Virus record (IMG/VR): IMGVR_UViG_3300011116_000315
Coordinates: 1 to 34,625 of that record
Length of the DNA stretch: 34,625 nt
Strand: one strand, 5' to 3'
DNA from: a virus
A model generated the notes under the pieces. That model was not told the origin of the DNA. It did no database searches and saw only the letters and a list, made by a program, of their open reading frames with translations. The first letter of the stretch is position 1. Each line of letters begins with the position of its first letter. The position numbers were made by a program, and so were the translations under genes. This document shows positions 4,551 through 18,052 of the stretch, one piece after another.

Positions 4551-5066
4551 TCACGCGGCTGTTGATTCTTGTTCTTGATTCTGATGAGCGGCAGACCTTA
4601 GCAGACGGTCGGCAACATATACCCAAATAAAACCACCAGCAATCTTTGCGGCAAATTGAAGAAGCACGATTCCGGGCATTAGCCCTCCAAACGCAATCGT
4701 CGGAAATACAAGGGAATCAACTGCGGCTCCGGCAACGTTGCTTTTGTTTGCCCTAGAAAACCAAGAACCTTTCATCTTTGCAAAAACAACCCAGTCAACC
4801 AATGCGGCTAACGTAAACGCGCAAGCCGACGCTATGGCAATTTTTCCACTAGCAGGGTTAAGCAAATAAGTAAGAATTCCAGACGAAGCTATGAGCGCAC
4901 CCATCTTCCACAGTCTTAGCCTTACATGTAACCAATCTCTTAACGCCAAATCTAAGCCTATAAACAGAAAAGCATTAATTGGACTAATCGCAGGGCCAAA
5001 CGCAGCAACCGAAAGATTCGCAAGCGTCATTGCAATCGTGTAAATACCAATAGCTATGTAAAGCAT
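4551..5066 (-). CDS. yhhQ: YhhQ/VUT-family queuosine-precursor (preQ0/preQ1) transporter
   Basis: A 171-residue integral membrane protein with about six hydrophobic segments. It carries the VUT/DUF165 signatures FGPAISPINAFLFIGLDLALRDWLH (residues about 23-48) and an NVAGAAVDSLVFPTIAFG segment (about 110-127). In bacteria this family imports the 7-deazaguanine bases preQ0/preQ1 across the inner membrane. It is somewhat shorter than the E. coli protein (about 220 residues). The ATG at 5066 has AGGAG five bases upstream, located in the last codons of the DpdA-like gene, so the two are tightly coupled (13-base overlap). Import of the modified base would feed DpdA directly. Substrate is inferred from family and neighbour. 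Confidence 0.85.
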   Translation of the reverse strand: MLYIAIGIYTIAMTLANLSVAAFGPAISPINAFLFIGLDLALRDWLHVRLRLWKMGALIASSGILTYLLNPASGKIAIASACAFTLAALVDWVVFAKMKGSWFSRANKSNVAGAAVDSLVFPTIAFGGLMPGIVLLQFAAKIAGGFIWVYVADRLLRSAAHQNQEQESTAA

Positions 5067-5737
5067 AAGTTCTCCTGTACAGGTCTAAGGTTCCAATGGT
5101 TCGGTGGGTTTTCTGAGTCAATACGCTTTGCCATGCAATAAGCGCATTCAGTCATGCTTTTATGGTTGACAGCAACATTTGTGGAATCCGCACTTGATAA
5201 CGGCCAGCGTTCGAGCCCCTGTCCCAACATCCGCATTCCATGCGTCCAAGGTAGCCGACCAAATGTTTTCGCAAGCCGGTTGAATGTTTCGTCCATTCTT
5301 CCCTGCCACTTTGCATCGCCGACATTCCAGTATTCACCAGATGAGCCGAGACAAACTCGACCCCAATCGTCTACAAGCTCGCAAAGGTAATCTAACGATA
5401 AACCTAGATGCCAGACCGGAATGCCTAAAGACTTTGGGAAAGGCCATGTCGCAGTCATTTCTCGCTGTTGCTCTATCGTCCCGTCGATTACATCAGGAAC
5501 AACACCCCAATGAGGGTGAGCAAGTATTGGATCTATCCAGTCGTAGAAACCGTGTAAGTCAAACGGAACCCCTCTTGTCTTGCAACTAAAGGCTCCGTTA
5601 TCCAACATCAGCGACTGACCGATTTTTAGACAAGTTTTTAAGTCTCTTGGCTCAAAGTAAGAAATGCAGAAGTGTTCACCGGCTAAAGTCTCTAGGACTG
5701 ATCTAGGTGTAATAGGTGTACCGTGGTAGTGGATCAT
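5054..5737 (-). CDS. dpdA: DpdA-like DNA guanine transglycosylase (7-deazaguanine insertion)
   Basis: A 227-residue protein resembling phage DpdA, the TGT-related enzyme that swaps guanine in DNA for preQ0 or a derivative. Visible motifs are LDNGAFS (D46, where TGT enzymes have DSGGFQ), PDVIDG (D82), VWHLG (H110), LGSSGEYW, H166GMRMLG and SSADST (D184, the likely nucleophile position), plus a possible metal site C198xxC201. Its tight overlap with the YhhQ transporter supports the assignment. No QueC/D/E/F or FolE homologue was seen, so the phage would depend on host-made precursor. The start ATG at 5737 has no Shine-Dalgarno of its own and overlaps the stop of a six-codon ORF that has one. 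The bound base (preQ0, preQ1 or other) cannot be told from sequence. Confidence 0.78.
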   Translation of the reverse strand: MIHYHGTPITPRSVLETLAGEHFCISYFEPRDLKTCLKIGQSLMLDNGAFSCKTRGVPFDLHGFYDWIDPILAHPHWGVVPDVIDGTIEQQREMTATWPFPKSLGIPVWHLGLSLDYLCELVDDWGRVCLGSSGEYWNVGDAKWQGRMDETFNRLAKTFGRLPWTHGMRMLGQGLERWPLSSADSTNVAVNHKSMTECAYCMAKRIDSENPPNHWNLRPVQENLCFT

Positions 5738-6004: not shown

Positions 6005-6103
6005 AAAAAAGCCACTTACTGCTGCGCCTAGTAGCTGTCCCCTGTTTTAACAAGGGTAGACGCATGAGTAAGTGGCCTTTCGATTGTTGACAGCTACGAC
6101 AAC
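6005..6103 (-). ncRNA. candidate pseudoknotted RNA ending in an intrinsic terminator
   Basis: Minus-strand RNA with two crossing helices. Helix 1 pairs GCCACUUACU (6076-6067) with AGUAAGUGGC (6020-6011). After a 2x2 internal loop it continues with UGCGUCUA (6064-6057) against UAGGCGCA (6030-6023), which includes one G-U pair. Helix 2 pairs GUAGCUGUC (6097-6089) with GACAGCUAC (6039-6031), all nine Watson-Crick. A small hairpin CCC(U)UGU/ACAGGG sits at 6056-6040. The order 5'-H2-H1-hairpin-H2'-H1'-3' is an H-type pseudoknot with directly stackable helices, and helix 1 is followed by six U (6010-6005). The complementary strand lacks a U-run, so the minus strand is favoured. It could be an independent small RNA, or the structured 3' end of the upstream nuclease mRNA and leader of dpdA. 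No known family was recognised. Confidence 0.6.
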
Positions 6104-16450: not shown

Positions 16451-18052
16451 TTATCCCCAAATTAAAGCTGCAACGATGCCGCTAGATGTTCCGCCGCCGC
16501 CAGCAGGGCCCGTCGGACCCGTAGGGCCGGTGGTTCCTGTGCCTGTCGGACCAGTGGGACCGGATGTTCCCGTTGGACCTGTTGGTCCGGCCACCGTACT
16601 TGCGGCTCCGGTCGGTCCGGTTGGTCCGCCGGTTCCCGTGGGACCCGTTGGCCCGCTCGCGCCGGATGTTCCCGTGGGACCGGTAGGTCCGCTAGACCCG
16701 CTCGCACCAGTGGGTCCAGTGGGGCCGGCCACCGTTGATGCTGCCCCTGTCGGACCGGTAGGCCCGCTCGCCCCAGAAGCCCCGGTAGGACCCGTCGGGC
16801 CAGAAACACCTGTGGGACCGGTGGGACCGGAAGCGCCAGAACTACCCGTGGGACCTGTGGGCCCCGCCACTGTTGAAGCAGCACCCGTCGGGCCTGTGGG
16901 ACCCGCTGCGCCGCTCGCTCCCGTAGGACCAGTAGGTCCCGCAACCGTACTGGCAGCACCCGTTGGACCGGTAGGCCCAGAAGCACCGGTGGGACCGGTT
17001 GGTCCGGCAGTTCCGGTTGCCCCCGTGGGTCCCGTCGGCCCTAAGCCTCCAGTTACTACAACGGTTACATCGGTTCCTATTGCGGTAGCCGTAACACCCG
17101 TACCCGTAAAGTTGAATGAAGTAACGCCAGAAGTTAGTAGCGTCCCCTCATCCGATACAGCGATATTCGTACCCGTTCCCGCAGGCCCTGTCGGTCCCGT
17201 CGGCCCAGCAGATCCGGCTCCCGTGGGACCAGTAGGACCAGCAGCGCCAGTAGGGCCAGCAACGGTAGAAGCTGCCCCCGTGGGTCCCGTTGGCCCCAAA
17301 TCACCCGTGGGTCCGGTTGGCCCAGCAACCGTGGATGCAGCACCGGTTGGACCGGTAGGGCCTGAGCTACCAGCGCTTCCTGTGGGACCGGTGGGACCTG
17401 CGACGGTACTGGCCGCACCGGTAGGACCTGTGGGACCTTCGTTTCCTGCGCTGCCCGTAGGCCCTGTAGGACCGGCAACACCTGTTGGACCGGTAGCGCC
17501 AATATTACCCGTGGGACCTGTGGGGCCCGCAACGCCTGAGCCTCCCGTAGGACCGGTGGGACCGCCTGCGGGACCCGTGGGCCCGATATCTCCGGTAGGA
17601 CCCGTGGGGCCGTTAACCCCAGCAGATCCGCTAGCGCCGGTTGGACCCGTAGGGCCATTTGCGCCATTACTCCCAGTGGGACCCGTGGGGCCAACGCTTC
17701 CAGAACTACCAGACGCTCCCGTCGGTCCCGTCGGGCCGGTTACGGAAGCACCGGTAGGACCTGTCGGACCGCCCGCTGGACCGGTTGGGCCGGTATCTCC
17801 GGTGGGACCGGTGGGGCCATTTGTTCCATTACTGCCGGTGGGGCCCGTGGGACCGCTACTTCCTGCGGCTCCGCTAGCACCCGTGGGACCTGTGGGTCCG
17901 CCAGGGGTTCCCGCAGCTCCAGTGGGACCCGTTGCTCCGGTAGGACCCGCTGCACCAGTGGGGCCTCCCGGTAAGCCGGCAGGACCGGTAGGGCCGATTA
18001 CGCCTTGGTCAACAACCAAGGTGATATTGCTGCCGTTAACAGTAGTAGTCAA
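16451..18052 (-). CDS. collagen-like tail fibre protein
   Basis: A 533-residue protein built mostly of Gly-X-Y triplets, dominated by GPTGPTG blocks separated by short variants ([19 protein letters not shown]). Residues about 1-18 ([18 protein letters not shown]) form a small head. Two collagenous arms are separated by a globular beta segment (about 292-338, [21 protein letters not shown]...VVVTGG). The C-terminus is [11 protein letters not shown]. Phage collagen-like proteins trimerise into triple-helical fibres. The start is TTG 18052, in a TTGA overlap with the upstream gene. The repeat DNA invites slippage, so length may vary between relatives. Confidence 0.88.

Follow-up and report, generated by a model that had tools for sequence, protein, structure and literature searches.

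A small DpdA-like gene overlapping a VUT/YhhQ-type transporter gene in an environmental phage record: a candidate two-gene 7-deazaguanine module

The gene pair and its surroundings

The stretch of DNA analysed here, called the window throughout, is a whole IMG/VR virus record (IMGVR_UViG_3300011116_000315), linear, 34,625 bp in length and possibly a fragment. Two overlapping open reading frames on its minus strand were located where the sequence-only reading had placed them:

5054-5737, minus strand: dpdA-like gene, open reading frame of 227 aa with an ATG start
4551-5066, minus strand: vut, gene of a VUT/QPTR (YhhQ-type) membrane protein, open reading frame of 171 aa with an ATG start

The genes follow each other in the order dpdA then vut, and the end of dpdA and the start of vut have 13 nt in common, an overlap that probably makes them translationally coupled. 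In a first scan they were side by side in all 37 complete loci. The dN/dS ratios against close relatives were 0.02-0.11 for dpdA and 0.10-0.27 for vut, well below 1, which indicates that both proteins are maintained; the two reading frames are genes and not chance ORFs. Their products matched the profiles PHROG_887 and Vut_1, respectively, and the two motifs first used to recognise the DpdA-like protein were found at residues 46-51 (DNGAFS) and 181-186 (SSADST).

The vut protein was matched by the Pfam model Vut_1 (PF02592) with an E-value of 8.1e-12 and 46.2 bits (cut-off 27.2), and by phrog_4899 with 3.9e-34. The Vut_1 match above cut-off bears out the proposed VUT/YhhQ-type identity, a family that transports preQ0 and preQ1. 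The NCBIfam preQ0/preQ1 transporter equivalogs TIGR00697 and NF008406 gave 3.6e-5 and 5.2e-6, below their cut-offs. Since the E. coli family member carries both preQ0 and preQ1 and the one of Chlamydia carries queuine (PMC11130926), substrate specificity is not readable from a VUT sequence, and preQ0/preQ1 is the putative substrate here.

No tRNA genes were found in the window. A freshwater betaproteobacterium is a plausible host, as the portal protein has 66% identity with its counterpart in Methylophilaceae phage P19250A. Neither a preQ1 riboswitch nor any other Rfam element reached the gathering score around dpdA and vut. On the minus strand at 6007-6080, upstream of dpdA, two 24-nt arms form a stem-loop that is accompanied by a T-run; 25 pairs were predicted across seven sequences, eight of them with pair-keeping changes on both sides. 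It was considered as a regulator of the pair and rejected, because many dpdA-vut relatives lack it, and it is more probably the terminator of the preceding gene. Elsewhere in the window, within the structural gene region, a long protein of collagen-like GPTGPTGA repeats is encoded at 16451-18052 (minus strand).

Predicted fold, candidate active site and relatives of the small DpdA

The dpdA protein was matched by PHROG_887, annotated as 'queuine tRNA-ribosyltransferase', with an E-value of 2e-42; no Pfam family matched it, and Pfam TGT (PF01702) matched none of 81 relatives. For structure prediction an alignment of 82 homologues was used, drawn from viral and bacterial contigs and reaching down to 31% identity to the window protein. 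AlphaFold2 predicted a (beta-alpha)8 barrel with a pLDDT of 94.3 and a pTM of 0.90, with strands at residues 2-6, 22-26, 42-46, 77-79, 108-110, 127-131, 164-167 and 182-185. This model replaced an earlier one from 11 close sequences, which was unusable (pLDDT 52).

Structural matches were obtained by rescoring Foldseek candidates with VIA-align, where Z differences within 1 are ties. The top match was archaeosine TGT (arcTGT, 1j2b; Z 14.6, 209 residues, 3.2 Å), tied with the CBASS protein Cap10 (9ntn; Z 14.5 over 211 residues) and followed by many entries of Z. mobilis TGT with Z of about 14 over 200 or more residues, including complexes with preQ0 and preQ1. Foldseek alone ranked transaldolases and other barrels of the PDB first, none below 1e-3, and the TGTs emerged only by VIA-align. 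In the comparison with predicted viral structures, most of the matches that carry a name were phage queuine-TGT proteins. A HMMER profile of the family gave only chance matches and no TGT among PDB sequences, and hhalign of the small-DpdA family against bacterial TGT sequences gave no link. The sequence-only reading had made its proposal depend on a TGT-like barrel; such a barrel is what the high-confidence model shows, TGTs match it best by structure, and this predicted fold places the window protein in the TGT superfamily. An HMM comparison, also suggested there, gave profile links to the DpdAs of Salmonella phage 7-11 and Enterobacteria phage 9g and none to bacterial TGTs.

Fifteen residues are invariant in the 82 sequences: H5, G6, P8, D46, P81, D82, P107, V108, H110, G131, H166, R169, P179, D184 and S185. 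Six of them (D46, D82, H110, G131, H166 and D184) lie at or next to the ends of successive strands in the model. The active-site aspartates of TGT are D102 (in DSGGFQ), D156 and D280, on strands 3, 4 and 8, and the candidate counterparts in the window are encoded as follows:

5600-5602, minus strand: codon of Asp46 (DNGAFS), invariant, at the end of strand 3 (42-46), proposed equivalent of TGT Asp102
5492-5494, minus strand: codon of Asp82 (PDVIDG), invariant, just after strand 4 (77-79), proposed equivalent of TGT Asp156
5186-5188, minus strand: codon of Asp184 (SSADST), invariant, in strand 8 (182-185), proposed equivalent of TGT Asp280

This putative equivalence is drawn from strand order and motif. 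Taken together with the known TGT mechanism, it suggests that D184 would be the nucleophile and D46 and D82 the acids of the base pocket. The zinc subdomain of TGTs (C-x-C-x2-C...H) is not conserved: only two cysteines, C198 and C201, are found there, and they are invariant only within the clade of the window. In one relative (L035:2405-3076) dpdA has an internal stop and the VUT frame is open.

The window protein groups with phage DpdAs, as had been proposed. Against the DpdA of phage 7-11 it has 32% identity (BLASTP E 3e-28; hhalign profile E 3.5e-40), against that of Pantoea phage vB_PagS_MED16 39% identity over 83% of the query, and against that of 9g an hhalign profile E of 1.4e-8, with PHROG_887 common to both. 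Its description as a small, divergent DpdA subgroup is correct, yet such a subgroup is not new, as the DpdAs of 7-11 and MED16 have 234 and 261 aa. By sequence comparison, the nearest relatives from phages with measured DNA are these two small DpdAs, MED16 being the closest. Both phages carry dADG in their DNA and are without synthesis genes (PMC8306585), and the part played by the 9g DpdA in modifying DNA has been tested in E. coli (PMC6884629). That the window protein sits among known small, synthesis-free DpdAs is the strongest reason to take it for a DNA modifier.

Base supply and the neighbours of small dpdA genes

Profile scans of the whole record, which may be a fragment, found no FolE (GTP cyclohydrolase I), PTPS/QueD, QueC, QueF or radical SAM (QueE) family member in the window, in agreement with the absence of synthesis genes reported before. 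Nor was any of these five families found in ten records of the window clade (34-38 kb), except for a single QueC match in a relative that fell short of the cut-off of the family.

Window-clade copies also occur in two sequenced bacteria, Ideonella livida and a betaproteobacterial MAG. Both have a TGT and a QueC of their own, so that the importer would supplement the host supply and not replace it. The sole Vut_1 match in each is the one at the dpdA locus position itself; the phage would therefore give the host a means of uptake that it does not otherwise have, next to the host's own synthesis. The suggestion that the phage scavenges precursor is plausible in this form, as a supplement.

The comparison of neighbourhoods covered 176 distinct loci in which dpdA is flanked on each side by at least about 1.5 kb. 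In 78 of them VUT is found no more than 2.5 kb from dpdA, and in the window clade it is directly beside dpdA in 43 of 45 loci. In more distant relatives other genes occupy its position: PTPS/QueD-family genes occur near dpdA in 25 of the 176, never with VUT, and an 84-aa protein of PHROG_37496 in 26, six of which also have VUT. Since 53 of the 176 loci have none of these three partners, the importer is not obligatory. VUT and PTPS share no locus (78 against 25; Fisher 9e-8) and the dpdA tree has at least seven switches between the two kinds of loci, but with only seven supported independent pairs a phylogeny-corrected exclusion test is powerless, and the exclusion is a pattern that does not prove avoidance.

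The catalytic cysteine of the CxxxHGH motif is kept in 3 of 27 PTPS neighbours, and the HGH and DH motifs in most; with this cysteine mostly lost, the proteins may not be working QueD enzymes. Genes of this kind overlap or adjoin small dpdA at L272:3603-4004, L176:3675-4004, L299:4195-4590 and other loci. Examples of the 84-aa protein are at L136:5726-5995, L139:5594-6004 and L062:5594-5932. The idea that it is a shortened QueD was dropped, as hhalign against the PTPS neighbours failed. A direct search of isolated phages found it in two only, Pseudomonas phage Epa33 and Microcystis phage Mae-JY30 (three records), where it directly adjoins dpdA every time; a diverged PHROG_37496 copy adjoins dpdA in Rhizobium phage RHph_X2_30. 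A further recurrent protein in the vicinity of dpdA, about 80 aa long (PHROG_9572), is present in phages of Rhizobium, Pseudanabaena and Caulobacter (L042:2512-2757, L043:3678-3938, L044:4723-4977), and lies between dpdA and VUT in two of the three cases.

Small dpdA is next to VUT in 15 of the 22 isolated-phage records with such a VUT; in one of the 15, Pam5, a small ORF lies between the two. The other seven are mEp-type coliphages. In the one examined, Escherichia phage mEp010 (L324:2956-4247), VUT adjoins a gene other than dpdA, which looks by eye like a DNA methyltransferase gene, and the importer may serve something else there.

One conceivable reading of these neighbourhoods is that the slot beside small dpdA is exchangeable among the QPTR importer, the mostly cysteine-less PTPS/QueD-like proteins and the 84-aa PHROG_37496 protein, all serving the same base. 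We regard this as rather doubtful. If true, the cysteine-less PTPS-like and 84-aa proteins would be new handlers of 7-deazaguanines, acting for instance as a carrier or in the missing conversion of preQ0 to the amide that lies behind dADG in phages that have no known synthesis genes.

Interpretation and closest known systems

We propose, with moderate confidence, that the pair is a two-gene 7-deazaguanine module in which a small DpdA exchanges bases, most likely in DNA, and a coupled importer supports it. The 227-aa DpdA, a bare TGT barrel, would cut guanine out of a polynucleotide, most likely the phage DNA, through an intermediate linked to Asp184, and would place a 7-deazaguanine base of the preQ0 type at the vacated position. 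The coupled VUT/QPTR protein would import that base or a precursor, adding to the supply made by the host. The chemistry, DNA as the target, preQ0/preQ1 as the imported substrate and the benefit are putative; the benefit may be avoidance of restriction or some other effect. In MED16, dADG accounts for about 0.13% of G and gives little protection: the DNA is still cut by most restriction enzymes whose sites contain G (PMC8306585). Judged by its closest relatives, DNA modification is most likely the best reading of the window DpdA, with tRNA and protein targets as alternatives.

The protein might instead act as a TGT on tRNA of the host or the phage, inserting the imported base and tuning translation during infection, with the importer feeding the reaction. 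The fold is shared with tRNA-modifying TGTs, arcTGT being the top match, databases label the family 'queuine tRNA-ribosyltransferase', and the importer family serves queuosine salvage (PMC11130926). We nevertheless consider a tRNA target unlikely: the zinc subdomain is not conserved and C198/C201 are invariant only in the clade of the window, a PUA-type extension would not fit into 227 aa, tRNA genes are absent from the window, the hosts own a full-length TGT, and close relatives sit in phages with dADG in their DNA (PMC8306585).

More improbable still is a protein-directed, counter-defence role like that of Cap10, in which the protein would recognise a partner bearing 7-deazaguanine and attach to it, edit it or remove it, for instance against type IV CBASS or Qat. 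Cap10 is tied for the best structural match, and deazaguanylation of proteins serves in anti-phage defence (PMC11996544, PMC13329287). Its Z of 14.5, however, lies within 1 of the TGT values and counts as a tie, and all three active-site aspartates are invariant, as base exchange needs. An importer or PTPS-like partner also suits an enzyme that consumes a base better than it suits a binder. No PADLOC model matched dpdA or vut, and the record has no QueC-family gene that would point to a CBASS IV operon, where Cap10 occurs with the QueC-like Cap9 and a CD-NTase.

A chance neighbourhood or decaying remnant, that is, a shortened TGT relic beside an unrelated membrane gene, could explain the short gene (317 aa in 9g DpdA, 361 aa or more in bacterial TGT), the internal stop in L035 and the below-cut-off NCBIfam transporter matches, but it is very improbable and largely refuted by the dN/dS of both genes, the intact barrel with all its active-site residues, and pairing in 43 of 45 loci in two gene orders.

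Parts of this picture are already known. A 2019 survey, in which phages with DpdA but lacking synthesis genes formed the largest class, left the modification status and base supply of these phages open and found YhhQ in some phages, uncorrelated with any group (PMC6884629); a transporter that raises preQ0 has been proposed in phage EC151 (PMC8310023). The present analysis adds the structural test, the regular pairing of two overlapping genes within a single lineage, and the observation that the partner gene is exchanged across relatives. No description of a steady DpdA-importer pairing as a unit was found in the literature searched. A lineage of environmental phages has retained a dedicated importer whose gene overlaps that of the enzyme, and this makes the question of supply testable with two genes, for example in queD yhhQ E. 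coli. The window DpdA is also a very compact candidate writer of 7-deazaguanines into DNA.

The closest relative with measured DNA, MED16, has a small DpdA (gp38, 261 aa) of the TGT_1 type and, like the window, no preQ0 synthesis genes (PMC8306585). Unlike the window, it has no VUT or PTPS near dpdA in the 8.6-kb stretch examined, its DpdA has a longer C-terminal part, and its host is a gammaproteobacterium. The DpdA of phage 7-11 (gp032, 234 aa; group 3 of Hutinet et al. 2019, PMC6884629) resembles that of the window in size, in most conserved motifs and in the lack of synthesis genes. It differs in that no importer is among the genes annotated around dpdA, with no 7-11 record among the VUT matches, and in belonging to a 90-kb phage of another type.

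Cap10 has the TGT-family fold (9ntn, Z 14.5) but acts within a defence operon by binding a deazaguanylated protein N-terminus (PMC11996544). Phage 9g DpdA belongs to the same superfamily and has the conserved pattern LDSGAFS...HAG...CDSS; it is a 317-aa protein encoded in a full synthesis cluster (folE, queD, queC and further genes), whereas the window has the importer instead. Enterobacter phage EC151 and Seuratvirus have a preQ0 transporter in the dpdA cluster, proposed to raise preQ0 (PMC8310023), but there it is accompanied by folE, queD, queC and queE, and in the window the importer stands alone.

In the isolated phages PEAT2 (Pectobacterium), AB3P2 (Acinetobacter), Opt-719, LHE71 and RCIP0319 (Escherichia), Flyfo siphovirus Tbat1_6 and Phc (Enterobacter), VUT directly adjoins a small dpdA. 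Their DpdAs are 34-40% identical to that of the window, and in most of them VUT comes before dpdA, whereas in the window dpdA comes before VUT.
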